Part shown: in pieces, positions 12,475 to 36,003 of the stretch
How the letters are laid out: every line of letters starts with the position of its first letter
Numbering within the stretch: the first letter of the stretch is position 1
Assembly: GCF_000443165.1 (NCBI RefSeq)
Contig: NZ_ATJV01000070.1
Coordinates: 62,001-126,000, forward strand
Length of the DNA stretch: 64,000 nucleotides
DNA from: Thauera terpenica 58Eu
GTDB lineage: Bacteria; Pseudomonadota; Gammaproteobacteria; Burkholderiales; Rhodocyclaceae
Reading direction: 5' to 3'
Notes under the pieces: generated by a model
Databases searched by the model: none
Told to the model about the DNA's origin: nothing
What the model saw: the letters and a program-made list of their open reading frames with translations, nothing else
Program-made: the position numbers and the translations under genes

Positions 12475-12497
12475 CCGCGCTGCGCTGCACGGTCCGC

Positions 12498-14533: not shown

Positions 14534-14552
14534 CGTGGGTTCCTTGCCGTGC

Positions 14553-15353: not shown

Positions 15354-15367
15354 GCCGCTCACGCTCC

Positions 15368-16243: not shown

Positions 16244-16269
16244 GGATTGTTTCCTGTATTCGACCGCGC

Positions 16270-17166: not shown

Positions 17167-17209
17167 CGTGCTTGCTCCCCCCCTGAATTAGGTTTTCTGC
17201 GATGGGAGC

Positions 17210-17253
17210 ATTGTGCGAAGACTGCGAGGGATGCTCATCGTCCGTTGAGACTA
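17210..17253 (-). promoter_or_regulatory. putative steroid-regulon promoter (hsaC-ipdAB operon), site S1
   Basis: On the minus strand TAGTCTCAACGGACGAT (17253-17237) is followed after 21 nt by CACAAT (17215-17210), a -10-like hexamer. The 17-mer is almost the same as the one before the SDR operon at 62 kb (14 of 17 identical to the 62338 site, 15 of 17 to the 62269 site), with identical spacing. The predicted transcript start is near 17203, leaving a leader of about 37 nt with a GGGGAG Shine-Dalgarno. Confidence 0.65.
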
Positions 17254-17303
17254 CGAATTCCCCCTCGGGCGGCCTCTTGTCAGCGTCATCGACGGCGGCG
17301 CGA

Positions 17304-19130: not shown

Positions 19131-19340
19131 GCTGTTGCTCCGCTGAGGATGGTTGGACACGCGACCTGGGGGGCGCCGCAGAGTGTTTGCCACGAGCGCG
19201 TGCGCCCTGATGCAATGTAGCGTCGGCGCAAGCCCTCCGCCAACGACGGCCAGGCCCTGAGCATGACCCGTCGCATGACGAAAGCAAGCAGGGATCCCGC
19301 TCCCGGCGCACTCACACCAAAACCCTGACGTCGGCCTGGT

Positions 19341-19368
19341 TGTCAATACTTTTTTTCAGTCTATACGT
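19341..19368 (+). promoter_or_regulatory. putative sigma-70 promoter for the hemerythrin gene
   Basis: TTGTCA (19341-19346) and TATACG (19363-19368) are separated by 16 bp in a T-rich stretch that contrasts with the GC-rich surroundings. Transcription would start near 19375, which places an upstream ATG at 19378 at the very transcript end and favours the ATG at 19417. Confidence 0.5.
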
Positions 19369-19416
19369 TAACGGGACATGGCCAGGCAAATCACAGGACT
19401 GAGGGGAGCACAGACG

Positions 19417-20019
19417 ATGGCGAACGCTATCGACAGGCTGAGTGCCGAACATGCCAATCTGGGACGACTGGTGCGCCTGCTCGACGGCCGTTCTGCGGTT
19501 GGCGCAGAGCTGACGTCAGTGACGGTCGCGCTGTTCGTGGACGTGATGTACTACCTGACCCATTTTCCAGACGTTTCGCACCACCCGGCCGAGGACGGCA
19601 TTGTCGAGCGACTGCGCGGCAAGGGTGCGCTGCCGCCCGGTTTCGGTGACGAGATCGAAGCCCAGCATGCCACGCTGGAGCGCCAGGGGGTCGACCTGAT
19701 GCGCGATCTGGAATCCGCGGCGCGGGAAGAATCCATGTCGTGGGAACTCGTCGAAGCCAACATCCGGCTGTATGCCGAACGTCTGCGCCACAACATGGCG
19801 GTCGAAGAGCTGATCCTGTTTCCGGCGGCGCTGCGCCACTTCGAGGCAGACGACTGGCTCGCGATCGATGCCATCACTGCACGCGTCCAGCACGATCCGC
19901 TGCTGTCGACTTCAACCGAGGACCGCTTCGCGCAACTGCGCCGTGTGATCGCCGCCGAGGCCGATTGCGGCTGCGAACAGGAGCCTGGACTGGGCGGCCT
20001 CGCCCACCCGGGAGCGTGA
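19417..20019 (+). CDS. hemerythrin-like HHE-domain protein
   Basis: A 200-residue all-helical hemerythrin/HHE domain. Candidate di-iron ligands are H in SAEHANLG near residue 10, the histidines in LTHFPDVSHHPAEDGI near residues 50-57, E/H in EIEAQHATL near 90, and HNMAVEELILFP near 132. The spacing fits bacterial hemerythrin-like proteins used in oxygen, nitric-oxide or iron-stress handling (family knowledge). The C terminus adds a cysteine pair (DCGCEQEP). ATG at 19417 has GAGGGGAG upstream. It stands alone between ftsH (divergent) and the sdh genes. Confidence 0.85.
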   Translation: MANAIDRLSAEHANLGRLVRLLDGRSAVGAELTSVTVALFVDVMYYLTHFPDVSHHPAEDGIVERLRGKGALPPGFGDEIEAQHATLERQGVDLMRDLESAAREESMSWELVEANIRLYAERLRHNMAVEELILFPAALRHFEADDWLAIDAITARVQHDPLLSTSTEDRFAQLRRVIAAEADCGCEQEPGLGGLAHPGA

Positions 20020-20082
20020 TCGGGGCAGGCGATCATATCCCATCCGCGTACGGCAGACCCTGTGTCATCGATGGAGGCCAGC

Positions 20083-20469
20083 ATGCCAGCACCACCCAGA
20101 GCCGCACCGAAATTCCTGAATCTTGCGCAGATCCGCTTCCCGATCGGCGCCATCGCCTCGATCGGGCACCGCATCTCCGGCGTGCTGCTGCTGATCAGCC
20201 TGCCCTTCCTGGTCCTCGCGCTCGAGCGCTCGCTGCGCAGCGAGGCAGACTATGCGGCGCTCGGCACATGGCTGAACTCGCCCTGGCGGGCCTTGCTGCT
20301 GGTGGTGATGGTGTGGGCGGCGACGCATCATCTGCTCGCAGGGGTGCGCCACATGTTGATGGACATCGGCATAGGCAGTCGCCTCGCACAGGCGCGCATG
20401 AGCGCCTGGAGCACGATTGTGGCGGCACTGCTCATCGCTCTGCTTGCTGCAATGAGGTGGCTGTCATGA
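20083..20469 (+). CDS. sdhC: succinate dehydrogenase cytochrome b556 subunit (SdhC-like)
   Basis: A 128-residue membrane anchor subunit. It has the SdhC signature FLNLAQIRFPIGAIASIGHRISG near residue 15 and three hydrophobic helices; the haem-ligating histidine is probably in THHLLAGVRHMLMD near residue 85. ATG at 20083 has GGAGG 5 nt upstream. It overlaps sdhD by 4 bp. SdhC and SdhD bind haem b and quinone and anchor the catalytic subunits at the inner membrane (family knowledge). Confidence 0.92.
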   Translation: MPAPPRAAPKFLNLAQIRFPIGAIASIGHRISGVLLLISLPFLVLALERSLRSEADYAALGTWLNSPWRALLLVVMVWAATHHLLAGVRHMLMDIGIGSRLAQARMSAWSTIVAALLIALLAAMRWLS

Positions 20470-20810
20470 GGCTTTTCCACGGCCAACGCGCCTGGGTGCT
20501 GCAGCGCCTGACGGCACTGGTGGTGCTGCTGTTGCTGGCGCTGACGGCAGCGACCCTGCTGATCGGGCCGGCGCCAAGTTATGAGCGCTGGCACGCACTG
20601 GCCACCAGTGCCCCCGGTGCCGTGCTGATCGTGATCTTTTTTGCGGCCCTGTGCGGTCACGCCTGGGTGGGCGTGCGTGACATCGTGCTCGACTACATCC
20701 AGCCCACCGCCCTGCGCTTGCCACTGCTGGCACTGATTGCCTTCATCCTGATTGCGATCACGCTCCGCGTGACGCTGACCATGGCCACCCATTTCACCGT
20801 CGGCGCCTGA
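20466..20810 (+). CDS. sdhD: succinate dehydrogenase membrane anchor (SdhD-like)
   Basis: A 114-residue anchor with three membrane helices. QRAWVLQRLTAL at the N terminus is SdhD-like, and the haem-ligand histidine is probably in CGHAWVGVRDIVLDY near residue 58. It overlaps sdhC (ATGA) and is followed by sdhB after only 24 bp. In almost all proteobacterial operons sdhA lies at exactly this place; here it is absent. Confidence 0.9.
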   Translation: MRLFHGQRAWVLQRLTALVVLLLLALTAATLLIGPAPSYERWHALATSAPGAVLIVIFFAALCGHAWVGVRDIVLDYIQPTALRLPLLALIAFILIAITLRVTLTMATHFTVGA

Positions 20811-20834
20811 GCATGCAGCGCGAGGAGAAGGAAC

Positions 20835-21530
20835 ATGCGACTGAGCATCTACCGCTATAACCCCGAATCCGATGCCGCACCGCGCATGCAGGACTACGAT
20901 ATCGCCCTCGGGGGGCACGACAAGAAGCTCCTCGACGTGCTGATGCGAATCAGGGAGACCGACGACAGTCTGTCCTTCCGGCGCTCGTGTCGCGAAGGCG
21001 TGTGCGGCTCGGACGCAATGAACATCAACGGCCGCAACGGCCTGGCCTGCATCACCGCCGTGTCCGACCTCAAGGAGCCGGTGGTGCTGCGTCCGCTGCC
21101 CGGCTTTCCGGTGATTCGCGACCTGATCGTGGACATGACCCAGTTCTTCACGCACTACAACTCGATCAAGCCCTACCTGATCAACGACCAGATTCCACCC
21201 GAGCGCGAGCGCCTGCAGTCGCCGGAACAGCGTGAGCGCCTGAACGGTCTCTACGAATGCATCCTGTGCGCCTGCTGCAGCGCATTCTGCCCGTCGTACT
21301 GGTGGAACCCGAGCAAGTTCGTGGGCCCGGCCGGCTTGCTGCAGGCCTATCGCTTCATCACCGACAGCCGCGACACCGCCACCCGCGAGCGCCTTGCCTA
21401 CCTCGACGATGTGTATCGTCTGTACCGCTGCCGCACGATCATGAATTGCACCGAGGTATGCCCGAAAGGCCTCAGCCCTTCGCATGCGATCGAGCAAATC
21501 CGCGTGGCGCTGCTGCGCGAATCATCCTGA
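20835..21530 (+). CDS. sdhB: succinate dehydrogenase iron-sulfur subunit (SdhB-like)
   Basis: A 231-residue iron-sulfur subunit. The [2Fe-2S] ligands are in SCREGVCGSDAMNINGRNGLAC (residues about 55-76, with the Asp variant normal for SdhB). The [4Fe-4S] and [3Fe-4S] ligands are in CILCACCSAFCP, CRTIMNC and CTEVCPKG. The full set of cluster ligands is therefore present. AGGAGAAGG precedes the ATG. No flavoprotein gene is linked, so SdhA must come from elsewhere or a different flavoprotein docks here. The reading direction is convergent with the FAD oxidoreductase. Confidence 0.94.
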   Translation: MRLSIYRYNPESDAAPRMQDYDIALGGHDKKLLDVLMRIRETDDSLSFRRSCREGVCGSDAMNINGRNGLACITAVSDLKEPVVLRPLPGFPVIRDLIVDMTQFFTHYNSIKPYLINDQIPPERERLQSPEQRERLNGLYECILCACCSAFCPSYWWNPSKFVGPAGLLQAYRFITDSRDTATRERLAYLDDVYRLYRCRTIMNCTEVCPKGLSPSHAIEQIRVALLRESS

Positions 21531-21556
21531 GCGCAGCAGCGCCACCCAGCCCCGGC

Positions 21557-22891
21557 TCAGAGCCGGATGCGCTCGAAGCGGTCGATGACGCGCGCAATCG
21601 GGATCAGCACCCGCCGGATCTTGAATTCGAAGCGCCCTGGCGACTGCAGCGCCACCGGCGCCTCCAGCGGCAGCACGATGTCCTGCGGGCGGTCGTCGGC
21701 CAGGGCGTGTGCCAGGTTCATGCCCATCATGGGACCGACCACATTGCCGCCGGCACCGAAGTTCATCAGCGCCATCACGCCATCGGCCACATGGTAGAGC
21801 CGCGGGCCGCCAGCCTGGTAGGCCGGCGCTGAATTGGCCGTCATGCCGGTCCAATAGGCATCGAGCTCGATCGGCACATCGCGTGTCGCCGGCCAGGTGC
21901 GGTGCAGGTGACGCAGCAGATAGCTGAAATAGCGCTTGCCATCGTCGGCGCCACCAACCCCGGGTATGGTCGCCGTCACCAGCCGATTGCGCCCGTCGAG
22001 CACCATCGGATACAAGCCCAGCGGGAACTGGGACATCGCCACCCGCGCCGGGTTGATGATCTCGAGCAAGGCCGGCGGCAGCGGCGTGGTCGCCACGCCA
22101 CAGGCCAGCAGCGGATACGAAGTACGCGCCAGCTCGGGAAAGAAGGCGTTACCGAAATGGCCGTTGGTGCACACCACCACCTTTTGCGCGGTGACGCTGC
22201 CCTGCGCGCTGCGCAGCTTCCAGCGCCGCCCCACACGCTCACAGGCCTCGACCGGCGAATCGCCAAACACCTGGGCGCCATGACGCGCAGCGACCGCGAC
22301 CATGCCATTGGTGAACATGTGCGGATTGACCCGGCCGCCGTCCTGCCAGTGCACACCAAAGGCATAGCGCTCGGTGCCCAGCAGTTCGCGCAGACGCCCG
22401 GCGCCTATGGTCTCGACCTGATAGCCCAGCGCGCGCCAGTGCGCGGCGTTCTGCGTCATTGACGCGTATTCGCGATAGGCCGCGGCCACCAGGCCGCAAG
22501 GGGCCGCATCGGCGTCAATGCCGTGGCGCGCACAGAGCTCGAAGATGATGTTGCGATGGCGCAGGTAATAATCGACGAAGCGCTGCCCGCCATCGGGCCA
22601 GGCTTTCATCTCTCCGAACTTGCCGAAATAGGGCTGCACCTGACCTGCGTTGCGTCCCGAGGCGCCGTCGGCGGGCTGGCGCGCCTCGACCAGGGCAACC
22701 CGCAGGCCGCGTTCGGCCAGATGCAAGGCCAGCGAGGCCCCCACCACCCCTGCGCCGATCACCGCGACCTCAGCCTCGATATCGGCTGTCAGCGCCGGCC
22801 AGCGCGGCGACGCGGCAGGCGCCGGCCACGCGCTGCGGGCGATGGAAACGGTACCGCTCTCGTAAGCGGCGTATGCAGCAGACGAGCTCAT
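21557..22891 (-). CDS. FAD-dependent oxidoreductase of the DAO family
   Basis: A 444-residue D-amino-acid-oxidase-fold flavoprotein. The dinucleotide-binding motif VAVIGAGVVGASLALHLAERG begins near residue 41, the second FAD contact GRNAGQVQPYF lies near 80, and FGAGGNVVGPMMG sits near 385. The pattern resembles gamma-glutamylputrescine oxidase and related amine oxidases, so oxidation of an amine or imino acid is the usual expectation; no substrate is evident. It is not a flavoprotein subunit of succinate dehydrogenase: it lacks the His-flavin and FRD/SDH motifs. It overlaps the upstream small membrane protein gene by 4 bp. The true start is MSSSAAYAAYESG. Confidence 0.85.
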   Translation of the reverse strand: MSSSAAYAAYESGTVSIARSAWPAPAASPRWPALTADIEAEVAVIGAGVVGASLALHLAERGLRVALVEARQPADGASGRNAGQVQPYFGKFGEMKAWPDGGQRFVDYYLRHRNIIFELCARHGIDADAAPCGLVAAAYREYASMTQNAAHWRALGYQVETIGAGRLRELLGTERYAFGVHWQDGGRVNPHMFTNGMVAVAARHGAQVFGDSPVEACERVGRRWKLRSAQGSVTAQKVVVCTNGHFGNAFFPELARTSYPLLACGVATTPLPPALLEIINPARVAMSQFPLGLYPMVLDGRNRLVTATIPGVGGADDGKRYFSYLLRHLHRTWPATRDVPIELDAYWTGMTANSAPAYQAGGPRLYHVADGVMALMNFGAGGNVVGPMMGMNLAHALADDRPQDIVLPLEAPVALQSPGRFEFKIRRVLIPIARVIDRFERIRL

Positions 22892-23304
22892 TGGTCCTTG
22901 ATCCCCCACGGATACAGGCGCGCATTGCTCACCGCCTGATGCAGCCACAGCGCGGCGATCACCCACACCGCCAGTGGCACCGGCTGGTCGGCCATCAGCG
23001 TCAGCACGCCGTGCGTGAGCAGTGCAATCACGGCCACGCTCTTGTAGCACACCAGCAACAGCAGCAGCCCGACATGGCTGCGTGGCGCGCGCGCGCCAGC
23101 GATGCTGGCGAGCCCGACACCGAAGATGACGCTGCCGTAAAGAATCGCCGGGTAGGGCGCAGCACCCAGATCCATGCCCAGCAGACGCCAGAATGCGCTC
23201 GGCCAGATCATCATCACCGCGCCCAGCAGCAAGGCGCTCGGCACGCTGACGCGGAAGGCCTTGCGCACTTTCGCTTCGTCAAACACAGGTCCCGCATTGT
23301 TCAT
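22888..23304 (-). CDS. small four-helix membrane protein
   Basis: A 138-residue protein with four predicted membrane helices (about residues 21-41, 52-70, 78-98 and 106-125) and short loops. No enzyme motif is visible. It overlaps the start of the FAD oxidoreductase (ATGA), so the two are translationally coupled. It may anchor or supply a small molecule to the oxidoreductase, but that is only a guess from linkage. Confidence 0.75.
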   Translation of the reverse strand: MNNAGPVFDEAKVRKAFRVSVPSALLLGAVMMIWPSAFWRLLGMDLGAAPYPAILYGSVIFGVGLASIAGARAPRSHVGLLLLLVCYKSVAVIALLTHGVLTLMADQPVPLAVWVIAALWLHQAVSNARLYPWGIKDQ

Positions 23305-23383
23305 CGCAAATTGCTCCGGTGGTGGTCGCGCGCTGCGGCCGTTGTCAAATGTGATGCCTGTACGCGCACTGATGCGGTGATCA

Positions 23384-24133
23384 TCACTCCACGACGTTGA
23401 AACCGGCCGTCATTCCGCCGTCAATGATGAATTCGGAGCCAGTGGTATAGGACGCCTCGTCCGAAGCCAGGAAGGCCACCATGCGCGCAACCTCGTCGAC
23501 CGTACCAACGCGGGGAATCGGCAGGCTCTTGTGGGTATCGCCCAGTTCGCCATCAGGGCCTCGCACCATCGCGGTGTCGATGCCGCCCGGATGCACGGAG
23601 TTCACCCGGATGTTGTAGCGACCGAACTCCAGCGCCGCGCACTTGGTCATGCCACGCACCGCAAACTTGCTCGCGGTGTAAGCGCTCAAGCCCCCCATGC
23701 CCACGAAGCCGGACACCGACGAGGTGTTGACGATGGCGCCCCCGCCGACGCTCTTCAGCGCCGCCAGCACCGCCTTCATGCCCAGCCAGCAACCGACCTG
23801 ATTGACGCTGATCACCGCCATGTACTCCTCGAGGCTCATGTCCTCGATCTGCCCCCAGCGCAGGATGCCGGCATTATTGACGAGCACGTCGAGGCGGCCG
23901 AAGTGCTCCAGCGTCTTGCTTACGGCAGCGTCCCACTGCGCGCCCTGGGTGACATCGAGATGGAGATAGAGCGCATCCGGGCCCAGCTCCTGCGCCAGCC
24001 GGGCGCCGTCCTCGTCGAGCACGTCGGCGATGACGACCTTCGCGCCTTCGGCGATGAACAGCCGTGCTTCGGCCTCACCCTGACCGCGCGCCGCACCGCT
24101 CACAAAAACCACCTTGTCTGCAAAACGCTTCAT
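23384..24133 (-). CDS. hydroxysteroid-type short-chain dehydrogenase
   Basis: A 249-residue classical SDR with SGAARGQGEAEA (residues 12-23, NAD loop), NNAGILRWG and the catalytic YTASKFAVRG. It ends with the usual GSEFIIDGGMTAG. The AARGQG loop and overall pattern are those of bacterial 3alpha/20beta-hydroxysteroid dehydrogenases (family knowledge). It lies next to the LuxR regulator, on the same strand, so oxidation of a hydroxyl on the incoming steroid is the favoured role. Other secondary alcohols remain possible. Confidence 0.85.
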   Translation of the reverse strand: MKRFADKVVFVSGAARGQGEAEARLFIAEGAKVVIADVLDEDGARLAQELGPDALYLHLDVTQGAQWDAAVSKTLEHFGRLDVLVNNAGILRWGQIEDMSLEEYMAVISVNQVGCWLGMKAVLAALKSVGGGAIVNTSSVSGFVGMGGLSAYTASKFAVRGMTKCAALEFGRYNIRVNSVHPGGIDTAMVRGPDGELGDTHKSLPIPRVGTVDEVARMVAFLASDEASYTTGSEFIIDGGMTAGFNVVE

Positions 24134-24234
24134 ACACCTTCCCCTGATTATTTTTTGCGATGCTCAAGAAAACGGCGCCCGCTTGATGGCAAGCGGCCCC
24201 GTCGGACGAAAAAACACCCGCTGCGCGCCCAGCC

Positions 24235-25473
24235 TCAGGCCAGCGGCGCGACGCCACTGAGCAGCACGCGCAACAACTCGGTCTGGCGCGTGACGCCGGT
24301 CTTGGCAAAAACCGCCCGGATCTGGCAGCGCGCGGTATTGCGGGTCACATTGAGACGCTGTGCCGCCTCCTCCACCGTGCAGCCAGCCATCAGCTGGACG
24401 GCAAGGTTGGCCTCGGCGGTGGTGAGCCGGTACAGTTGCTTCAGCTCGTCGTGCGAAGCCAGCACGTGCGCCTCGGAATCTCGGAGGATGACCAGCGCCG
24501 CCGGGCGCGACGATGGCTCTGACCATTCGGTCAGGGGCGCAGCACGCACGGCGACACCCAGATTCGAGCGCCCCGAGGACCGGCTCACCGACATGCCGCT
24601 GACCACGCCCGGTTGCGACTGTCCGCCCGCGGATACGGCACGCTCGATCAGACTGCGCAGCTCGTGGTTTTCAGCCGGAAACGCCGCCGACAGCCCGCCA
24701 TTGACGATGGACAAGCCGTCGCGCTGCTCCAGGATCGCGCTCGCCGCACGATTGGCCTTGAGGATGCGCTTCTCCTTGTCCAGAAACACCACTCCAACCG
24801 ACAGACGGTCGAGCATGCCTGCGTAAAAATGGCTCTCCACCGCGGCGATATCCAGGCCTGCGCGCAACTGCACTGCGATCACCAGATGCGGCAGCAAAAG
24901 ACTGCAGATCGCCAGCTCGCGCTCGCCGAAACGGGCCGCGCTGGGCGGGCGCGAAACGCGCAGGCGGCAGCTGGGCTCGGGCCCCATGCCGATATCGGCG
25001 CCGATGTAATAACGAATGTTCAGCGGCGCATGAAACTCGCGGTAATACGAGCCCTGCAGCCAGTCCTCGTCATCGACCAACTCCTCCAGCATCACCATGC
25101 GGTCGCGCGGCAGATTGAAGAAGGGGTCAATCGTGGTCAGGCTGGTCGAGAAAACTGCCGCCCGCTCGGGCTGGGCCTCGCCGGCAAACACCACCTGCAG
25201 GGGCTGCTCGGAATTGGGCACGCGCAGGATCAGGGCGACGTAGTTGGCGTCGAGCAGTTCGCGCATGCGCTCGAGCACACGCGTCCACGGAACCGTCTCC
25301 TGGGTGCCGGAATAGACCAGACCGATGAGCTTGTCGACCTCGACGAAACCGAGCCCCGAGCGTTCGAACAGGAGATCGCGCCCACAAGGCTCGGTGATCC
25401 GGGATCTCGTCCGCATTCCAGCCCCGGTAGCCGGGACCATCGTCGCTCTCTCCATACCCGTCGTCGCTCCCAT
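24235..25473 (-). CDS. LuxR-family regulator, TesR-like
   Basis: A 412-residue regulator. The C-terminal GerE-type helix-turn-helix is LTTAEANLAVQLMAGCTVEEAAQRLNV...TRNTARCQIRAVFAKTG, and it ends RQTELLRVLLSG. The N-terminal 330 residues contain a PAS-like segment (MLDRLSVGVVFLDKEKRILKANRAA) that could sense a ligand. Length and context match TesR, the LuxR-type activator of steroid genes in Comamonas testosteroni (family knowledge). Site S4 in its own promoter suggests autoregulation. ATG at 25473 follows GGGAG; in-frame ATGs at 25455 and 25416 are alternatives. Confidence 0.85.
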   Translation of the reverse strand: MGATTGMERATMVPATGAGMRTRSRITEPCGRDLLFERSGLGFVEVDKLIGLVYSGTQETVPWTRVLERMRELLDANYVALILRVPNSEQPLQVVFAGEAQPERAAVFSTSLTTIDPFFNLPRDRMVMLEELVDDEDWLQGSYYREFHAPLNIRYYIGADIGMGPEPSCRLRVSRPPSAARFGERELAICSLLLPHLVIAVQLRAGLDIAAVESHFYAGMLDRLSVGVVFLDKEKRILKANRAASAILEQRDGLSIVNGGLSAAFPAENHELRSLIERAVSAGGQSQPGVVSGMSVSRSSGRSNLGVAVRAAPLTEWSEPSSRPAALVILRDSEAHVLASHDELKQLYRLTTAEANLAVQLMAGCTVEEAAQRLNVTRNTARCQIRAVFAKTGVTRQTELLRVLLSGVAPLA

Positions 25474-25528
25474 CCGCACTCCCGTGAAACGCCGGCAAGC
25501 GCCTGATCACCTGGCTTTTCGTGGCCTC

Positions 25529-25572
25529 ACGATCACACGGAAGCCTGGCGCCCTCATCACTAAAATGGACTA
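25529..25572 (-). promoter_or_regulatory. putative steroid-regulon promoter (luxR), site S4
   Basis: On the minus strand TAGTCCATTTTAGTGAT (25572-25556) is followed after 21 nt by GATCGT (25534-25529). It matches the site before the aldolase operon at 13 of 17 positions and keeps its ATCGT -10 core. The ACGAT half is changed to GTGAT, so it is a weaker site, as is common for an autoregulated regulator gene. The predicted start is near 25522, with a 49-nt leader. Confidence 0.5.
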
Positions 25573-25731
25573 CGTCACCACGATCCCGAGTGTGCCCACT
25601 TAAGCAGTTTGAATGATGAACACAAACACGAGCAGCGAATAATGAGCTCTGGGCAGGCGATGGCTCTGCATCGAGCCGCCGCTCCATCGTCCCGCCGCCC
25701 CATCGTCAACTCCGCGCCCCCAGGAGCCGCC

Positions 25732-26661
25732 GTGTACCTCGACCCTCAAGCCCAAGCCATCGCCGACCAGCTCGCGCACCTGCCGCGTCCGGACTTCTCC
25801 ACGCTGAGCGTGGCCGACTACCGCGCCATGCTTGCCGCATTTCCGATGCCATCGGACGGTGACGACGGCCTGGCCTCGGTCACCGACGACAGCCTGCCCG
25901 GCCCCGGCGGCCCATTGGCGGTGCGCATCTTCCGCCCGGTCGGTGCCGCCCCCCTGCCGCTGACCGTGTTCTTCCACGGTGGCGGCTTCATCAGTTGTGG
26001 CATCGACACCCACACCAACCTCTGCAGCCGGCTGGCCGCCTTGTCGGGCTCGATCGTGGCCGCGGTGGACTACCGCCTGGCACCCGAGCATCGCTTTCCG
26101 GCCGCCGTGGACGACACCATCGCCGCGGTGCGCGCCCTGCATCAACGGGCAGCGGATTTCGGTGCCGACCCCGACCAGATCGCCGTGGCCGGCGACAGCG
26201 CGGGCGGCACCCTGGCCGCAGTGGCGGCGCATGCCCTGCGCGGCAGCGGCATCCCGATCCGTCATCAGCTCCTGCTTTACCCGGTTACCGATGCCGCCTG
26301 CGACTCCGCGTCGCAGCATGAACTCACCGACGCGCCGGTACTCAACCGCGAGGCCATGCAATGGTTCTGGCGCAACTACCTGCCCGATGCCGCCGCCGGC
26401 CTCGACCCCCGCGCCTCGCCGCTGCGCCAGCGCGATCTGGCGGACCTGCCACCGGCCACCATCATCACCGCCAGCGCCGACCCGCTGCGCGACGAAGGCG
26501 AGGCCTACGCGCAGGCGCTGATCAGCGCCGGCGTGTGCGTCACCCAGCAACGCTGGAACGGCCAGTTCCATGGTTTTGCCAGCCTGCTCGGCACGCTCGA
26601 CGCCGCCTCCGAAGTGCTGGCCTTGTCCGCCCTGCAGCTCAGGGGGGCGTTCGACAACTGA
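25732..26661 (+). CDS. alpha/beta-hydrolase esterase (HSL family)
   Basis: A 309-residue hormone-sensitive-lipase-type esterase. HGGG (residues 82-85) forms the oxyanion hole, and the nucleophile is S156 in GDSAGG. The acid is in ASADPLRDEGEAY and the base in QFHGFASLLG. GTG at 25732 is chosen because AGGAG lies 5 nt upstream and the resulting length is standard; upstream in-frame ATG or TTG codons would add an unrelated 41-residue arginine/alanine-rich stretch. It is followed after 62 bp by a Baeyer-Villiger monooxygenase, so hydrolysis of the ester or lactone made by that enzyme is the best guess. Confidence 0.88.
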   Translation: MYLDPQAQAIADQLAHLPRPDFSTLSVADYRAMLAAFPMPSDGDDGLASVTDDSLPGPGGPLAVRIFRPVGAAPLPLTVFFHGGGFISCGIDTHTNLCSRLAALSGSIVAAVDYRLAPEHRFPAAVDDTIAAVRALHQRAADFGADPDQIAVAGDSAGGTLAAVAAHALRGSGIPIRHQLLLYPVTDAACDSASQHELTDAPVLNREAMQWFWRNYLPDAAAGLDPRASPLRQRDLADLPPATIITASADPLRDEGEAYAQALISAGVCVTQQRWNGQFHGFASLLGTLDAASEVLALSALQLRGAFDN

Positions 26662-26723
26662 TTCGCCGGCCTCGCCGCAGGCCCCACACCTGTTCCAATC
26701 CGCCCCTGGAGTGACTCATCACC

Positions 26724-28199
26724 ATGACTATCGCAAACACCGCGCCGCAATCGCTTCGCATCGTCGTCATCGGCGCCGGCATGGCCGGCATCCTGGCCGC
26801 CATCCGCCTGCGCGAGGCCGGCAAGCACCAGGTCGTCGTCTATGAGAAAGCCGACCGCGTCGGCGGCACCTGGCGCGAGAACACTTATCCAGGCCTGGCG
26901 TGTGACGTTCCCGCCCACGCCTACACCTACTCCTTCGCCCCCAATGCGGAATGGAGCAGCTACCTCGCACCCGGGCCGGAAATCCAGCGCTACTTCGAAG
27001 CCGTGGCGCAACAGTACGCCCTCGACAAGGTGATCCAGTTCGGCCAGGAGGTGGTGCGCTGCGAACTCAAGGACGGCCGCTGGGAGCTCGAAACCGCCAG
27101 CGGACTGATCGACCACGCCGATGTGGTGATCGCCGCCACCGGCGTCCTCCACCACCCCAGCATGCCCGACCTGCCCGGCCTGGACCGCTTTACCGGGCCC
27201 TCCTTTCACTCCGCACAGTGGGATCATTCGGTGGCGCTGGACGGCAAGCGCATCGGCATCATCGGCAGCGGCTCGACCGGCGTGCAGATCGTCTCCGCAC
27301 TCGCCGGGCGCGCGAGCAAGCTCATCCACATCCAGCGCACACCGCAGTGGATCATGCCGGTTCCCAACACCCCCTACAGCGAAGAACAGAAAGCCGCCTT
27401 CCGCGCCGACCCTGCGCTCATCGACGACATCCGCTACGCCGAGGCCTACACCTCGGCAGTGAATCGCTTCACCGAGGCCATCATCGATCAGGACTCGCCG
27501 CAGATCCGCGAGATCGAGGACATCTGTCGGCAAAACCTCGAAGGCAGCGTGAAAGACCCCGTGCTGCGCGAGAAACTGCGCCCCAACTATCGCGCCGCCT
27601 GCAAGCGCCTGATCTACTCGTCGGACTACTACGAGAAGGTGCAGCGCCCCGACGTAGCCGTCGCCATCGGCCCGATCCAGCACATCGAGCCCGAAGGCGT
27701 GCGCATGGCGGACGGGACGCTGCAGGAGGTCGATGTGCTGGTGCTGGCAACGGGCTTTCACGCCGACCGCTTCGTGCGCCCGATGCGGGTGATCGGGCGC
27801 AATGGCACCGACCTGGATGCGCGCTGGTCGCCCGCACCCTCGGCCTATCTCGGCATCACCGTGCCCGGCCTGCCGAACTTCTTCATGCTCAACGGCCCCA
27901 CCGGCCCGGTCGGCAATTTCTCTCTGATCGACATCGCCGAGCGTCAATGGAACTACATCGAGCACCTGCTCGCCGACATCGAAGCGGGCAAATGCCGCCA
28001 GGTCGATTTGAAGGAAGACGCGATGCAGGCGTATGACCACCGCCGCATCGCCGCCGCGCGCAAGACGATTTTCGGCTCAGGCTGCTCGAGCTGGTATCTG
28101 GATGCCACCGGCGTTCCGGTGAGCTGGCCATGGAGCTACGATGCCTTCGCCGAGCAGACGGCGGCACCGAAGAATGAGGACTACGAGTACATCGCTTGA
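26724..28199 (+). CDS. Baeyer-Villiger flavin monooxygenase
   Basis: A 491-residue class B flavoprotein monooxygenase. It has the FAD motif VIGAGMAG (residues 15-22), GGTWRENTYPG, the Baeyer-Villiger fingerprint FTGPSFHSAQWDH (F156 to W166, matching FxGxxxHxxxW) and the NADPH motif GIIGSGSTG near residue 176. It should insert oxygen next to a ketone to give an ester or lactone. Because it is paired with an esterase and faces a TesR-like regulator, a steroid ketone is a reasonable substrate: the C20 ketone of a pregnane (giving a 17-acetate) or the C17 ketone. This is inferred. Confidence 0.9.
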   Translation: MTIANTAPQSLRIVVIGAGMAGILAAIRLREAGKHQVVVYEKADRVGGTWRENTYPGLACDVPAHAYTYSFAPNAEWSSYLAPGPEIQRYFEAVAQQYALDKVIQFGQEVVRCELKDGRWELETASGLIDHADVVIAATGVLHHPSMPDLPGLDRFTGPSFHSAQWDHSVALDGKRIGIIGSGSTGVQIVSALAGRASKLIHIQRTPQWIMPVPNTPYSEEQKAAFRADPALIDDIRYAEAYTSAVNRFTEAIIDQDSPQIREIEDICRQNLEGSVKDPVLREKLRPNYRAACKRLIYSSDYYEKVQRPDVAVAIGPIQHIEPEGVRMADGTLQEVDVLVLATGFHADRFVRPMRVIGRNGTDLDARWSPAPSAYLGITVPGLPNFFMLNGPTGPVGNFSLIDIAERQWNYIEHLLADIEAGKCRQVDLKEDAMQAYDHRRIAAARKTIFGSGCSSWYLDATGVPVSWPWSYDAFAEQTAAPKNEDYEYIA

Positions 28200-28299
28200 A
28201 GAACTGCGGGGGGCAGCTGCCCCCTGCCAGTGGTGGCATCAGAATGCCGCCTTTGCAACTGAAGCTGCCACTCTCGAAAATCCGACGTCGGGCAGCAGC

Positions 28300-28489: not shown

Positions 28490-29146
28490 TTAGCTACCTC
28501 GGCGGCTGGCTTGCTCCTTGGTGGCGAGTAATCCTGCCAAAGCAAAATGCTTGAGATGGCTTTTGAGTTCATCTGCGGGCCGCGTCATCAATGCGCGAAA
28601 TGGAGTAGGCGTATCGCGGTCCACTACCAGCATCATCAGCATCGGTGCGATGACGCTCAGAACGCACCGCAACAACGCCGGGTCCTGTGCGCTGAATCCA
28701 GTAACTTCCGAAAGGATGTCGCTCATGAGCTTGAAGCGCGGCATCACCCCTTCTCGAACGAGGGCTGCTAGGTGGGTAGAAGGTGCAACCAACTCCCGGG
28801 CGAATACACGTCCATGCCAGCCCCCTTCGTCGTAAAGCCGGTCGACAATCATGTCGATGGCTGCGGATAGTTTGTTCTCCGCAGAATCCTGCCGAGCGTG
28901 AATTTCCTTGAGCTTCTGAAGGTTAATCAGCTGCTCATATCCTTCGAAGAGCACTGCTTGATACAACCCGTCGCGGCCGCCAAAGTGGTAATTGATGGCG
29001 GCAAGGTCTGTTCCGGCCGCTTCGCAGATCGCTTTGTTTGCGGCCCCTGCATAGCCAAGTCGTGCAAATAGCTGCCCGGCAACTTCCAGGAGGCGGGCTC
29101 GAGTTGCATCTCCATCGGCACGCGCTGCTCTCTTACGTCCAGCCAT
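28490..29146 (-). CDS. TetR-family repressor (CecR/YbiH-like)
   Basis: A 218-residue TetR protein. The N-terminal helix-turn-helix reads TRARLLEVAGQLFARLGYAGAANKAICEAAGTDLAAINYHFGGRDGL (residues about 15-62). The C-terminal ligand domain resembles CecR/YbiH, which controls ybhGFSR in Escherichia coli (family knowledge). The divergent pump operon starts 105 bp away, and a perfect 19-bp palindrome lies in that gap. ATG at 29146 is used; a TTG at 29155 is less likely. Nucleotide composition here is less GC-rich than the steroid genes, consistent with transfer. Confidence 0.9.
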   Translation of the reverse strand: MAGRKRAARADGDATRARLLEVAGQLFARLGYAGAANKAICEAAGTDLAAINYHFGGRDGLYQAVLFEGYEQLINLQKLKEIHARQDSAENKLSAAIDMIVDRLYDEGGWHGRVFARELVAPSTHLAALVREGVMPRFKLMSDILSEVTGFSAQDPALLRCVLSVIAPMLMMLVVDRDTPTPFRALMTRPADELKSHLKHFALAGLLATKEQASRRGS

Positions 29147-29185
29147 AGTTTTCAACCCAATCTTGATGCCCGAATGCTACCATAG

Positions 29186-29214
29186 TTGCAATTCAAATTG
29201 AATTTGAATATAGT
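29186..29214 (+). promoter_or_regulatory. pump-operon promoter with TetR operator in the spacer
   Basis: TTGCAA (29186-29191) and TATAGT (29209-29214) are 17 bp apart, a near-ideal sigma-70 promoter. The perfect palindrome ATTCAAATT-G-AATTTGAAT (29191-29209) fills the spacer and touches both hexamers, so a bound TetR dimer would block RNA polymerase. Its position between the divergent genes also suits autorepression. Confidence 0.85.
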
Positions 29215-29251
29215 GCGTCTATCGAGAACGTCAAGCGCAGGAGCATCGAAT

Positions 29252-30244
29252 ATGAACCGGAAAATTCTCGCCGGAGTTGCGATAGCAGTTGTTGGAGTCG
29301 TTGGTGTCAGCGCTTGGCTGTGGAGCGGAAACTCCTCGCAGAAGAACGACATCACGCTGCTTGGCAACGTCGACATCCGTCAGGTTTCACTGGCCTTCCA
29401 GGACAGCGAGCGCATTGTTGAAATGCGGGTTGAGGAAGGGGCGAAGGTCACAGCTGGCCAAGTTCTGGCGGTGCTCGACACTCGCACGCTCGAGCTTCAG
29501 GCGGCTCAGACCGAGGCTCAAATCGAGGTAAACAAGAAGGCTTTGCTGCGCTTACGCAACGGTTCGCGCCCGGAAGAAATAGGTCAGGCGCAGGCCCGGG
29601 TGGATGCTGCTACTACCGATGCAAAGTTGGCCGAGCTGGATTTCCAGCGGATGCAATCCATCGCAGAGGAAACTCATGGTCGAGGCGTTAGCCGCCAGGA
29701 ATTGGACCGGGCCGCAGCGACATTAAAGGCGGCTCGTGCAAAAGTTGAAGACCAATCAATGGCCCTACGCCTCGCCAAATTAGGTCCGCGCTCTGAAGAC
29801 ATCGAGCAGGCGGCAGCCCAGCTCAAGGCATCGGAAGAGTCGTTGGCTTTACTCCGGCATCGCATTTCACTGGCTGAATTGAAAGCTCCGACCAATGCCG
29901 TCGTGCGTTCCAGATTAGCCGAGCCGGGCGACATGGCGTCGCCACAAAAACCGGTCTACGCCTTGGCCATCGTGCAACCCAAATGGATACGCGCTTACGT
30001 GAATGAGGCGCAGCTTGCCCGTGTCCGGCCAGGGATGTCGGCTGAGGTCAAAATAGACGGACTTCCTGACGCATCCATCGCCGGGGAGGTTGGATATATC
30101 TCCTCGGTAGCGGAATTCACGCCCAAACCCGTCCAAACGGAAGAGCTACGAACGAGCCTTGTCTATGAGGTCCGCGTACTGGTCAAGGACCCTGACGACC
30201 AGCTACGGCTGGGCATGCCAGCCACTGTCCGCTTGGTGCCCTAA
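29252..30244 (+). CDS. HlyD-family periplasmic adaptor (YbhG-like)
   Basis: A 330-residue membrane fusion protein. One N-terminal membrane anchor (residues 5-24) is followed by a split lipoyl domain (VDIRQVSLAFQDSERI... and ISLAELKAPTNAVVRSRLAEPGDM). Between them lies a long alpha-helical hairpin rich in Ala, Glu, Gln and Lys (about residues 75-200), then a beta-barrel. It should link the inner-membrane ABC transporter to the outer-membrane factor encoded at the end of the operon. ATG at 29252 has GGAG upstream. Confidence 0.9.
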   Translation: MNRKILAGVAIAVVGVVGVSAWLWSGNSSQKNDITLLGNVDIRQVSLAFQDSERIVEMRVEEGAKVTAGQVLAVLDTRTLELQAAQTEAQIEVNKKALLRLRNGSRPEEIGQAQARVDAATTDAKLAELDFQRMQSIAEETHGRGVSRQELDRAAATLKAARAKVEDQSMALRLAKLGPRSEDIEQAAAQLKASEESLALLRHRISLAELKAPTNAVVRSRLAEPGDMASPQKPVYALAIVQPKWIRAYVNEAQLARVRPGMSAEVKIDGLPDASIAGEVGYISSVAEFTPKPVQTEELRTSLVYEVRVLVKDPDDQLRLGMPATVRLVP

Positions 30245-30268
30245 TCACCCCGAGGCACTCGGCAAATC

Positions 30269-32038
30269 ATGACCACAACTGCTCTCACCGTTGATGCAAA
30301 GGATGTCGTCAAACGCTTCAAAGGAGCGGTTGGCGGGCCGGCATTGAACGGCATCACCCTCTCGATTCCCAAAGGGCAGCTCACCGCCCTCGTGGGGCCT
30401 GATGGCGCGGGCAAGACCACACTCATACGGTTAATCGCTGGTCTGATGAAGCCGGATTCAGGGAGCCTCTACACACTGGGCATTGATGTGGCCGCCAAGC
30501 CCCAGGAGGTACAAGACCTCATCAGCTACATGCCTCAACGCTTTGGCCTCTATGAAGACCTGAGCGTCATGGAGAACCTTAATCTCTATGCCGACCTGCA
30601 CGGCGTACCAATGGATGAGCGTCGAGAACGCTTTGACCGCATGCTGTCCATGACAGACATGGCCGCATTCACCAATCGCCTGGCAGGAAATCTATCGGGC
30701 GGCATGAAGCAAAAGCTTGGGTTGGCCTGCACGCTGGTACGTTCCCCCCGGCTACTTCTTCTCGACGAACCGACCGTCGGCGTTGACCCGCTCTCCCGCC
30801 GTGAGTTGTGGCGCATCGTGCAGCAGCTAGTCGAGGAAGAAGGTCTTCCGGTGATTGTGAGCACGGCTTACATGGACGAAGCAGAGCGTTGTAAGCACGT
30901 CATCGTAATGACTGAAGGGCAAGTGCTAGCTCAGGGTACACCGGATGAACTGTGCCGGCCGGCCAAGGGCCGTTGCTTTGTTGCCTATCCGCGGGAAGGT
31001 GAGTTGGCTAGGACGCTACAGGCGAGACTTATCGACGATAAGAGGCATGTTCTCGATGCTGTGCCGGAAAGCGGCGCGGTGCGCTTTATCCAGGCTGGGG
31101 GCACGGAGCCTCGTGACCTTGAAGGAATACTTCTGGGAGCTCGATGCGAGGCCACTCCCTCCCGCCTCGAAGATGGAGTGATGACCCTCCTGCGCGAGCG
31201 TGCGACCCAGGACGGCCACGAGGATGCGGTTGAGACCAAGAATTCGTCTGTACAGCTCGACACGAAGGACCCAATCGAGTTAATCAAGGTCCGCGACCTG
31301 GTTCGCCAATTTGGCAGCTTTACAGCGGTTGCCAGTACCTCGTTCAGCGTTCGCCGAGGCGAAATCTTCGGTCTACTCGGGCCCAATGGCGCGGGGAAGA
31401 CGACCACATTCCGCATGCTTTGCGGCCTGCTCCCGGCGACCAGTGGCTTCCTCGAGGTGGCGGGTTTCAACCTGAGAACCGCCCGAGCACCTGCTCGCGC
31501 TCGCATCGGCTATGTCTCCCAGAAGTTTGCCCTGTATGGAAATCTGTCCGTCACCGAAAACCTCACGTTCTTCGGAGGCGCCTATGGCTTGGGCAGACAG
31601 GAGCTGTATGCCCAGGTAGAGCGAGCGCTAGACGAATTTCAGCTGCGGGAAAAGAAAGACGAACGAAGCGGTGAGCTTCCCGGCGGTTTCAAACAGCGGC
31701 TGGCCATGGCCACGGCCCTGATACATCGCCCCGAGATTCTCTTTCTCGACGAGCCTACAAGTGGCATCGACCCACTCGCTCGTCGCGCTTTCTGGCGGCG
31801 CATCACGACGCTTGCTGCCGAAGGCACCACCATCATCGTGACGACGCACTTCATGGAGGAAGCTGAGTATTGCGACCGCATCGTCATCCAGGATGCCGGG
31901 CGCTTGCTGGCGATTGGAACACCTCACGAAGTTCGCAGCCAGGCTTCTGGTGCGGCGAACATGAATGAGGCGTTCCTGGAGATTATCAAGAAGGCGCGCG
32001 AAAGCAGGCAGACCGGCTTCAATGCGGTGGAGGCCTGA
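30269..32038 (+). CDS. ybhF: ABC transporter ATPase with two fused nucleotide-binding domains (YbhF-like)
   Basis: A 589-residue protein with two ATPase domains in tandem. Domain 1 has GPDGAGKTT near residue 43, signature LSGGMKQKLG and LLLLDEPTVGVDP. Domain 2 has GPNGAGKTTT near 373, a degenerate signature LPGGFKQRLA and ILFLDEPTSGIDP. The weakened second signature suggests the two ATP sites are unequal. The linker of about 100 residues between them is typical of YbhF. It powers the YbhSR permeases; E. coli YbhFSR is linked to export of drugs or Na+/Li+ (family knowledge). Confidence 0.92.
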   Translation: MTTTALTVDAKDVVKRFKGAVGGPALNGITLSIPKGQLTALVGPDGAGKTTLIRLIAGLMKPDSGSLYTLGIDVAAKPQEVQDLISYMPQRFGLYEDLSVMENLNLYADLHGVPMDERRERFDRMLSMTDMAAFTNRLAGNLSGGMKQKLGLACTLVRSPRLLLLDEPTVGVDPLSRRELWRIVQQLVEEEGLPVIVSTAYMDEAERCKHVIVMTEGQVLAQGTPDELCRPAKGRCFVAYPREGELARTLQARLIDDKRHVLDAVPESGAVRFIQAGGTEPRDLEGILLGARCEATPSRLEDGVMTLLRERATQDGHEDAVETKNSSVQLDTKDPIELIKVRDLVRQFGSFTAVASTSFSVRRGEIFGLLGPNGAGKTTTFRMLCGLLPATSGFLEVAGFNLRTARAPARARIGYVSQKFALYGNLSVTENLTFFGGAYGLGRQELYAQVERALDEFQLREKKDERSGELPGGFKQRLAMATALIHRPEILFLDEPTSGIDPLARRAFWRRITTLAAEGTTIIVTTHFMEEAEYCDRIVIQDAGRLLAIGTPHEVRSQASGAANMNEAFLEIIKKARESRQTGFNAVEA

Positions 32039-33198
32039 TGATGCAAACCCAATCGACTTGGCTCCCACGAAACTTGAGTCATTTTTGGCGACGGCTCAGG
32101 GCGCTCACCATCAAGGAGTTTCGCCAGCTGATACGCGACAAGAGCAACCTGGCGATAGGTATCTTCCTGCCCATCGCACTGATACTGCTCTTCGGGTACG
32201 GACTCTCGCTCGATATTCGGAATGCGCCAGTCGCCATCGTCCTAGAAGATGGCGCGCCCATGGCGCGCGATGTTGTGGCGGGATTGCGTGGCTCGGACTA
32301 CATCGCCCCTCGTTACGTCACGACGATGGCCGAGGCGGAAGCCCTGATGCGTGGCCGCCAGGTCGACGGCATTGTCCGCATCCCCTCCGACTTTTCTCGG
32401 CAACTGGCTCAGGGCCGAGGAACGGTACAGCTTGTCGTCCATGGAACGGATGCAGCGACGGCCGCCAGTCTTCGTGGTTATGTGTCCGCAGCCATTGATG
32501 GATGGAACAAGCGCCGCGCCGATAGCGCCGGCAGGGTCAGTGCTGCTCCAGGCGTGGAGCTTGTTGACCGTCTCTGGTTCAACTCGGCCAATTCGAGCAC
32601 CTGGTATCTGGTTCCTGGGCTGATAGTCCTCATCATGACCCTGGTTGGCGGATTCCTAACCTCGATGGTCATCGCCCGGGAATGGGAGCGCGGAACGATG
32701 GAGGCCCTTTTCGTCACCCCGGTGCGTTCCCTCGAAATACTGCTCGCCAAAATCATCCCGTACTTCGCGGTGGGTATGGGAGGGCTGACGCTCTGCCTGG
32801 TCGCCGCCCGGGGGTTGTTCCATGTGCCGCTTCACGGTTCGCTCTGGGTGCTGATGGTCAGTTCAATGCTTTATCTGATGGTCGCACTGAGTCTGGGGTT
32901 GTTGATTTCAGCGGCCGCCCGCAATCAGTTTCTTGCAAGCCAGGTCGCCGTCATCATTACCTTCCTGCCGGCCCTGATGCTCTCCGGCTTCCTGTTTGAC
33001 CTGCACAACGTACCGACCGGCATCCAGAAGGTCGCGTCCATCCTGCCTGCAACCTACTACGTTGAACTGGCGCGCATGAGCTTCCTGGCCGGCGACAACC
33101 TCAACCTAATAGTGCGCGACTGGACAATCCTTATCGTGCAGTTTGCCGTGCTCATCACGGGCGCGCGTCTACGCACCAAGAAGACATTGGACCGATGA
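32038..33198 (+). CDS. ybhS: ABC-2 permease (YbhS-like)
   Basis: A 386-residue ABC-2-type permease. One N-terminal membrane helix (IFLPIALILLFGYGLSL) precedes a periplasmic domain of about 140 residues, then five to six C-terminal helices including MTLVGGFLTSMVIAREWERGTMEAL, the conserved cytoplasmic turn of the family. Its ATG overlaps the ATPase stop (TGATG) and its end overlaps the next permease by 4 bp. It should pair with the next gene product as a heterodimer. Confidence 0.92.
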   Translation: MMQTQSTWLPRNLSHFWRRLRALTIKEFRQLIRDKSNLAIGIFLPIALILLFGYGLSLDIRNAPVAIVLEDGAPMARDVVAGLRGSDYIAPRYVTTMAEAEALMRGRQVDGIVRIPSDFSRQLAQGRGTVQLVVHGTDAATAASLRGYVSAAIDGWNKRRADSAGRVSAAPGVELVDRLWFNSANSSTWYLVPGLIVLIMTLVGGFLTSMVIAREWERGTMEALFVTPVRSLEILLAKIIPYFAVGMGGLTLCLVAARGLFHVPLHGSLWVLMVSSMLYLMVALSLGLLISAAARNQFLASQVAVIITFLPALMLSGFLFDLHNVPTGIQKVASILPATYYVELARMSFLAGDNLNLIVRDWTILIVQFAVLITGARLRTKKTLDR

Positions 33199-34325
33199 TG
33201 ACTCTGCTCGAATCCATTACGGGTTCTCTTCGCCGAATCTCCTTCCTGTTCCGCAAGGAAGTCTTGGCGATTTTGAAGGACCCCGCCATCCGGGTAATTC
33301 TCATCGTCCCGATTGTTATCCAGTCGCTGGTCTTCGGTTACGCGGCCACCTACGACCTCAATCATGTGCGATACGCCGTTCTAAATGAGAGTCGTGGCGC
33401 AGCCTCGACAAATCTGCTGGCTCGTCTGGAGGGCTCAAAGGTCTTTGTACGGGCGGCGACGCTGCGCAATTCAAGCGATATTGCTCGTGCTATCGACAAT
33501 GGCGAGGCGCTGCTGGTTCTCCACTTCGCGCCCGACTTCGACGCGAAACTAGCATCAACGGGTAGCGCACCTGTTCAGCTCATTCTCGATGGGCGTAACT
33601 CGACCACTGCCAATATGGCGGCTGGCCACCTGAGCACCCTGATTGGCCAATTCAACGCTTCACTACCCAACGCGGTACGTCCACCCGTCAACATTGAAAT
33701 CCGAGCCTGGTTCAATCCCAACCTGGAATCTCGGTGGAACATCGTTCCCGCCCTGATTGCTTCCCTGAGCATGATTCAAACTTTGCTGTTGGCCGCATTG
33801 TCGGTGGCCCGTGAGCGTGAACAGGGCACGTTCGACCAACTGCTCGTGACGCCACTGCGACCCATGGAGATTTTGATTGGCAAGGCGTCGCCGGCCATCA
33901 CTATCGGACTGGTGCAGGCAAGCCTGGTTTTCTGCGTGGCGCTGTTCTGGTTCCGGATTCCGTTCCAGGGGTCCTTGGTTGTGCTCTATGTGGGGCTTGT
34001 CGCCTTTACAACGGCCTGCGTTGGTATTGGTCTCTCCATCTCGGCGCTGTCCCTGAATATGCACCAGGCAATGGTTTACGCCTTCGTACTCATCATGCCG
34101 CTCATCCTGTTGTCCGGGCTCGTCACGCCCGTTGGCAACATGCCTACCGCACTACAGATTCTGACTTACGCCGACCCGTTGCGATTCGCCATCGACCTGG
34201 TTCGCCGGGTCTATCTGGAGGGTGCTGGTTGGCAGGACGTAGGAATGGATTTTGTCCCGATGCTGGTGATAGCCGCGATAACGCTTCCCGTTGCCGCATG
34301 GCTTTTCCGAAATCGGCTGACCTAA
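33195..34325 (+). CDS. ybhR: ABC-2 permease (YbhR-like)
   Basis: A 376-residue ABC-2 permease with the same layout as its neighbour: FRKEVLAILKDPAIRVILIVPIVIQ at the N terminus, a periplasmic domain, and five C-terminal helices with the VAREREQGTFDQLLVTPLRP turn. It overlaps YbhS by 4 bp and is followed after 10 bp by the outer-membrane factor gene. The four proteins form a complete MacB-independent tripartite-style exporter. Confidence 0.92.
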   Translation: MMTLLESITGSLRRISFLFRKEVLAILKDPAIRVILIVPIVIQSLVFGYAATYDLNHVRYAVLNESRGAASTNLLARLEGSKVFVRAATLRNSSDIARAIDNGEALLVLHFAPDFDAKLASTGSAPVQLILDGRNSTTANMAAGHLSTLIGQFNASLPNAVRPPVNIEIRAWFNPNLESRWNIVPALIASLSMIQTLLLAALSVAREREQGTFDQLLVTPLRPMEILIGKASPAITIGLVQASLVFCVALFWFRIPFQGSLVVLYVGLVAFTTACVGIGLSISALSLNMHQAMVYAFVLIMPLILLSGLVTPVGNMPTALQILTYADPLRFAIDLVRRVYLEGAGWQDVGMDFVPMLVIAAITLPVAAWLFRNRLT

Positions 34326-34335
34326 GGGGAATGCA

Positions 34336-35841: not shown

Positions 35842-36003
35842 TGCTCCGCTTGGGTGGAGGCAGAAACTAAGAAAGCAGCCGTTCAAATGACAGCTTTAGG
35901 GCGAAGCCTACTGGCCGCTTGTGGCCGATAGTACCCTCTCGGCATCATCACCGTAAGCAGCCGCCCGCCGGCAAAAGGTGCATGGCGGGCAGCCGCGCCG
36001 GGT

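Follow-up and report, generated by a model that had tools for sequence, protein, structure and literature searches.

Why an esterase gene should be followed by a Baeyer-Villiger monooxygenase (BVMO) gene within a bacterial steroid-degradation cluster is the question raised by a 64,000-nucleotide stretch of contig NZ_ATJV01000070.1 of Thauera terpenica 58Eu (genome G000), hereafter called the window. The HSL-type esterase (probably 25732-26661) and the type I BVMO (26724-28199) are encoded on the forward strand with 62 bp between them, beside a LuxR-type regulator gene on the reverse strand (24235-25479). With a probability of about 0.68, we suggest that the two enzymes strip pregnanes of their C2 side chain, working beside the ChsH2/Ltp2 route that is also encoded in the window. 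In the first step, the BVMO, consuming NADPH and O2, would oxygenate a 20-ketone (progesterone or a relative of it) between C17 and C20 to form the 17-beta-acetate, a reaction that is in print for EGO55_13845 of Caenibius tardaugens. Hydrolysis of this ester by the esterase would then release a 17-beta-hydroxysteroid, for example testosterone. A 17-beta-hydroxysteroid dehydrogenase (17-beta-HSD), for which no particular enzyme is put forward, would yield androstenedione for the 9,10-seco and HIP pathways, whose genes are close by. The divergent LuxR-type protein probably controls the pair on a steroid signal, and the ChsH2/Ltp2 route would run in parallel, serving C22 acyl-CoA intermediates of longer side chains. 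A bolder form of this proposal is tentative and somewhat more doubtful than probable; it takes the pair as a self-contained, transferable pregnane side-chain cassette of betaproteobacteria and Steroidobacteraceae: its esterase would supply the 17-acetate hydrolase still lacking from the account of bacterial progesterone catabolism, and a nearby short-chain dehydrogenase/reductase (SDR) would feed the pair by converting 20-beta-hydroxypregnanes to 20-ketones rather than acting after it.

The BVMO gene encodes 491 amino acids, and codon-position GC is typical of coding DNA in its open frame, as in those of the esterase and the regulator (three of three). The protein retains both type I sequence marks in full, with FTGPSFHSAQWD as the fingerprint and GGTWRENTYPGLACD as the second motif, for which we take the definitions to be FxGxxxHxxxW[P/D] and [A/G]GxWxxxx[F/Y]P[G/M]xxxD, respectively. 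The original prediction of an intact Baeyer-Villiger fingerprint enzyme following an HSL esterase on one strand is thus borne out by the presence of both motifs and by the short gap. Among 98 near and distant BVMO-like open reading frames, 87 carry both motifs, 10 only the second, and one only the first. The Rossmann glycines G17, G19, and G22 and the arginine R295 are invariant in all 35 aligned BVMO rows, and R295 pairs, as counted by hand on the alignment, with R329 of the cyclohexanone monooxygenase chain 3gwd, a residue presumed here to be catalytic. The AlphaFold model has a mean predicted local distance difference test score (pLDDT) of 91.9 and matches 48 BVMO entries among the 50 matches listed with Z scores of 34.7-39.5 over 460-478 residues, the window protein being about 50 residues shorter than the type I BVMO chains aligned in that comparison. 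It is the sole BVMO gene of this kind in its genome, where three other matches (E<=0.001) are weak, with E values from 3.5e-5 to 9.6e-4.

The likely substrate of the enzyme is suggested by its relation to EGO55_13845, which, according to the accessible text of PMC12239570, makes testosterone acetate from progesterone in E. coli extracts, acts likewise on pregnenolone to yield androstenediol acetate and, among four steroids, prefers progesterone and pregnenolone, with low activity on 21-hydroxyprogesterone. The same source reports that EGO55_13845 is upregulated 139-fold on progesterone relative to testosterone, that it is redundant with a luciferase-like monooxygenase (LLM), the double mutant showing no growth on progesterone, and that LuxR and TetR genes sit between the two oxygenase genes (PMC12239570). 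The strain was matched to genome G676 through the published primers, six of whose eight stretches were found exactly, and only in its two loci among 145. In a tree of 127 BVMO rows, the window protein and EGO55_13845 fall into a 70-row clade (Shimodaira-Hasegawa-like approximate likelihood ratio test, 99) from which the C. tardaugens paralogue EGO55_06865 is absent. As this tree had long branches, a 50-row tree was hand-picked to drop them and to thin near-duplicates, removing 77 of the 127 rows, and it again places the two proteins together, in a 26-row clade (support 100/98) with the paralogue outside. This grouping supports the earlier proposal that a pregnane C20 ketone could be turned into a 17-acetate by the window enzyme. 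Alignment columns that distinguish this clade from neighbouring sequences were also sought (18 versus 15 rows, two distant rows omitted), and the eight found, four of them unlike EGO55_06865, were set aside as too few and unmapped to the pocket.

The second enzyme of the proposed route is an Abhydrolase_3 protein (PF07859, E 2.5e-74). Its open reading frame is listed from 25609, with 350 amino acids; this start was rejected as probably too far upstream, because homologues begin near a GTG at 25732 that has AGGAG just upstream, and this GTG is probably the true start, giving a protein of about 309 amino acids. The sequence carries HGGG and GDSAG motifs, which we take to be the oxyanion and nucleophile marks of an HSL-type (family IV) esterase.

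An esterase gene lies within 100 bp of the BVMO gene on the same strand in five loci, namely the window, Thauera sp. 28 (L015), a second congener (genome G139, locus L100), a Steroidobacteraceae metagenome-assembled genome (MAG, L014), and L144, a more distant pair from the same taxonomic order (BVMO 52% and esterase 42% identical). Of 50 distinct loci that have a BVMO of at least 50% identity and are flanked by roughly 9 kb in both directions, 13 contain an esterase homologue (E<=1e-20), always within 5 kb. Unfiltered, 22 loci have such a homologue, 19 within 5 kb and three (L106, L070, and L026) at 5.7-7.5 kb, the latter being outside the filtered count through a BVMO identity under 50% or short flanks. 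For the six closest loci, a near-identical pair among them, the esterase tree reproduces the BVMO groups, and in the family of the window (f1), the esterase (E<=1e-60) occurs in seven of 150 genomes, including all five with the BVMO. In C. tardaugens itself, an HSL esterase (L140:15462-16397) is encoded 4.5 kb from EGO55_13845; it is undiscussed in the accessible text of PMC12239570, which calls the testosterone-acetate hydrolase unknown and names another, uninduced gene as a possibility. In C. estronivorus (L150:5936-8125), an HSL esterase gene comes after a second LLM gene, the called frames being 24 bp apart, and a TetR-like gene, recognised by eye, is divergent from this pair. Because esterases of this family accompany a Baeyer-Villiger enzyme in three loci of different build, the window esterase is taken as the ester hydrolase of the BVMO and would hydrolyse a steroid 17-acetate; adjacency and matching trees likewise favour the hydrolysing partnership that the original prediction had assumed. 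No relative of the esterase assayed on steroid acetates was found, and literature searches on Thauera with progesterone and on esterases with Baeyer-Villiger steroids returned no title on this pair.

The regulator had been described as facing the pair; it does lie on the opposite strand beside it, but the orientation is divergent, back to back. Its protein combines a VqsR/LuxR-like N-terminal domain with PAS-like and helix-turn-helix parts, of which the GerE (LuxR helix-turn-helix; E 0.039) and PAS matches of the window protein are weak and fall short of the curated threshold, whereas the PAS match of the L100 regulator passes it. The model is of moderate confidence (pLDDT 76; predicted template modelling score, 0.49), and its N-terminal domain resembles 5xhx (VqsR/LuxR-like) at rank 7 with a target TM score of 0.68, the ranks above being phytochromes with target TM scores of about 0.2. 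By its domains and place, the regulator may be TesR-like, as the original prediction had it. Upstream of the esterase, a 20-bp stretch on the forward strand, TTAAGCAGTTTGAATGATGA (25600-25619), is a candidate operator or promoter element that recurs in similar form ahead of the esterase genes of Thauera sp. 28 and G139, and none like it was seen at that place in L014. Its core pattern, which was derived from these same loci so that the match is partly circular, occurs at three places only in 1.97 Mb of loci (the window, L015, and L100), copies of the same places aside. This stretch may be a binding site of the divergent regulator.

Downstream of the regulator on the same strand is the SDR gene (23384-24133), which neighbours luxR also in L015 and L100. 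Its nearest solved relatives are Rv2002 (8.5e-68) and 3-alpha,20-beta-hydroxysteroid dehydrogenases (2hsd, 1.2e-59), followed by the 3-beta/17-beta-HSD 1hxh (4.3e-41), a ranking that does not settle the substrate. The SDR may be the 17-beta oxidase that the original prediction had in mind, or it could act ahead of the BVMO on 20-hydroxypregnanes.

The module is embedded in steroid-degradation genes. C/D-ring (HIP) degradation is encoded on the reverse strand at 576-17166 by EchA20-like, IpdC-like, IpdAB-like, and HsaC/TesB-like proteins, these names being partly provisional, together with acyl-CoA dehydrogenases and thiolases. The protein called IpdA is a CoA transferase (PF01144) whose nearest solved sequences, 6co6, 6coj, and 6con (E 7e-80 to 2e-78), we take to be IpdA structures; the names IpdB and IpdC were given from weaker family matches and gene order and are provisional. 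A ChsH2-type protein (zf-ChsH2/OB and MaoC) and an Ltp2-type thiolase-fold protein, representing the CoA-dependent side-chain route, are encoded at 53794-55973 on the reverse strand. A pyrroloquinoline quinone (PQQ)-dependent alcohol dehydrogenase gene (56174-58288) adjoins ltp2 in the window as well as in Thauera sp. 28 and G139. Moreover, a KshA_C protein is encoded on the same contig 41 kb to the left of the window, and the aerobic 9,10-seco route is therefore likely to be present. Androgen catabolism, both in the presence and in the absence of oxygen, has been reported for Thauera strain GDN1 (PMC9980454).

The gene order of the two Thauera relatives ties the pair closely to this setting. 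In Thauera sp. 28 it reads acad-echA20-ipdC-ech2-ipdB-ipdA-tesB-sdr-luxR-(est-bvmo)-chsH2-ltp2-PQQ dehydrogenase, with gaps of at most about 0.35 kb in L015 between the stretches that align with the window DNA, and G139 (L100 and L101) has the same order plus a carboxyltransferase gene and a TetR gene between luxR and the esterase. As chsH2 and ltp2 directly follow the BVMO gene in L015 and L100/L101, the idea of a CoA-independent route beside the Ltp2 route is supported by genes that are contiguous in Thauera sp. 28 and, with the two extra genes, in G139. In the DNA alignment with these loci, the window has two stretches of its own, 17258-23394 and 28202-53640, which flank the module, and on the simplest reading the link between the BVMO and the steroid cluster predates both insertions. 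The smaller contains, at 20062-21530, consecutive sdhC, hydrophobic sdhD-like (by eye), and sdhB frames that leave no space for sdhA between them. The larger carries efflux genes (28490-36000, GC 0.58), an IS91 transposase, a tyrosine recombinase, an IS1380-like transposase, Kup, a KdpD-like kinase, and calcium transporters. The TetR gene at 28490 was considered as part of the module and rejected, being CecR-like, beside the efflux genes, and in a stretch absent from the Thauera relatives. DNA identity to the Thauera loci is 72-73% for the module (23395-28201), about 87% for 8254-17257, and 78-84% for 53641-64000, and the esterase-BVMO part is nearest to L014 (75% over 25733-28193). The fork joining L014 and the window is weak in the BVMO tree (93/44) and stronger in the esterase tree (97). 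The module could have been exchanged between lineages, one of them represented by a MAG, or could be evolving faster.

The association with steroid catabolism extends beyond the cluster itself to the distribution of ipdA. In family f1, the BVMO is found in five of 150 genomes at an identity of at least 60% (nine at E<=1e-60) and ipdA in 10, all five BVMO genomes having both; of four listed congeners, G000 and G139 carry both genes, and G048 and G103 neither at these limits. A phylum sample of 349 genomes has three with the BVMO (E<=1e-150) and eight with ipdA, the latter being present in all three of the former. In family f41 (that of G449, searched with the BVMO of L075), 27 of 298 genomes carry the BVMO and 41 carry ipdA, with 24 of the 27 having both. 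Hypergeometric probabilities for the three samples are 4e-7, 8e-6, and 2e-21, uncorrected for kinship; the first two samples both contain the genome of the window, and without it the second value becomes 3e-4.

Several observations weigh against a role in pregnane side-chain removal. The window BVMO is 58.2% identical to EGO55_13845 and 58.5% to the paralogue EGO55_06865 (58.1 and 57.3% in the multiple alignment); as the two are equally distant from it, percent identity was rejected as evidence of orthology, and the grouping was decided by the trees. To our knowledge, one member of the clade has been assayed. The fold comparison cannot tell steroid from cyclohexanone or phenylacetone monooxygenases, which lie within about 3 Z units of one another, and it was dropped as a substrate discriminator. 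No esterase homologue is near the BVMO in 37 of the 50 well-flanked loci, and among f1 genomes with both genes, these are adjacent only in G000 and G139, the esterase lying at a distance of about 9 kb in G083 (where, by eye, its neighbours seem unrelated) and of about 2 Mb in G129, and on another contig in G022. In C. tardaugens, progesterone did not induce EGO55_13865, which adjoins the esterase homologue (PMC12239570). Furthermore, three of the 27 f41 BVMO genomes (G500, G691, and G733) lack ipdA, and the sampled genomes are related (f1 comprises two genera), so that the ipdA counts are not independent.

The equal distance of the two C. tardaugens paralogues also favours an alternative in which the BVMO oxidises a different steroid ketone (a corticosteroid, or the keto function of a bile acid or of a degradation intermediate), leaving an ester or lactone for the esterase to open. 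The group formed by the clade and its neighbours is wide, spanning 54-78% identity across 80 loci, and four of the 27 f41 BVMO genomes carry two to four such genes. However, the steroid preference of EGO55_13845 and the trees that group the window BVMO with it make this alternative rather improbable. It is still less likely that the two genes form a general pair for small ketones, as in alkane or cyclic ketone catabolism, standing beside steroid genes by chance: the nearest solved sequences of the BVMO are cyclohexanone monooxygenases and BVMO-esterase pairs do occur in ketone catabolism, but two more genomes, those of Thauera sp. 28 and G139, have the pair within the steroid cluster, and the BVMO co-occurs with ipdA. 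Entry into ring D, also part of the original prediction, by conversion of a 17-ketone such as androstenedione to a lactone that the esterase opens, is described for fungi (PMC12239570) and appears very improbable here, as nothing was found in its support, the adjacent HIP genes already cover rings C and D, and the Rhodococcus steroid monooxygenase is reported in the introduction of the same paper to give no androstenedione lactone.

Progesterone is a common hormone pollutant, and if the pair does remove the pregnane side chain, the locus offers a specific candidate gene for the acetate hydrolase left unassigned in the accessible text of PMC12239570. It would also place the key enzyme of the pathway in a Thauera-like betaproteobacterium, Thauera being unmentioned in the main text of that paper. 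An LLM of the EGO55_13860 type (E<=1e-20) had no match in seven of 10 genomes searched, including G000, G139, Thauera sp. 28, and that of L014, and was present in G676, G621, and G022. Loss of the BVMO should therefore abolish progesterone use where the LLM had no match, if no other enzyme carries out the step, and single deletions should give a clear phenotype, making for a cleaner test here.

The closest known system is the pdc cluster of C. tardaugens NBRC 16725 (EGO55_13845-13860), which, as far as its published description was accessible, shares with the window a BVMO from one clade and steroid-degradation genes in the vicinity and, with a less certain correspondence, has a LuxR-type regulator gene close by in the opposite orientation. 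Unlike that cluster, the window places an esterase gene immediately ahead of the BVMO gene, and the LLM was not among the proteins of its genome at the above threshold. The two LuxR-type regulators are homologous over 345 residues with about 30% identity, that of the window being divergent from the esterase. The TetR proteins (28490 and EGO55_13850) share 30% identity over 76 residues only (E 7e-7), the former having a CecR C-terminal domain. The pdc pattern, with LuxR and LLM on the opposite strand, was recognised by protein clustering at seven BVMO loci (L028, L036, L037, L038, L041, L054, and L075), with Pfam confirmation of the LLM limited to L140 and L016.

Other systems resemble parts of the locus. 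The mymA operon of Mycobacterium, with a BVMO, lipR, and an SDR, is similar in combining a BVMO with an HSL esterase and an SDR. The steroid monooxygenase of Rhodococcus rhodochrous (4aos, 4aox, 4ap1, and 4ap3) shares the type I BVMO fold, with Z scores of 36.7-37.5 across 466-472 residues, and is reported to convert progesterone to testosterone acetate (PMC12239570); it is 30% identical, has a 549-residue chain compared with 491 in the window, and scores below cyclohexanone monooxygenases by sequence. The putative esterase EGO55_02225 of the Hsd60/Hsd70 operon is proposed to hydrolyse steroid esters before 17-beta oxidation (PMC6895838). A tandem HSD pair of this type with a permease was not recognised by eye beside the C. 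tardaugens relatives L149 and L140, and the C. tardaugens esterase nearest to that of the window (L149:7316-8266), beside which no tandem SDR pair or permease was seen among the called frames, was not equated with EGO55_02225. The Ltp2/ChsH2 route likewise removes a steroid C17 side chain, its counterpart in Comamonas testosteroni (ORF40-44) removing the propionyl residue of cholate (PMC12502768), but it does so by CoA-dependent retro-aldol loss and not by a monooxygenase step. Collectively, the sequence comparisons suggest that the locus is a variant of the recently described pdc system in which the LLM is not found and the esterase is built in; the chemistry is known, and, within the literature searched, the gene pair, its place in a betaproteobacterial steroid cluster, and the hydrolase candidate appear to be new.

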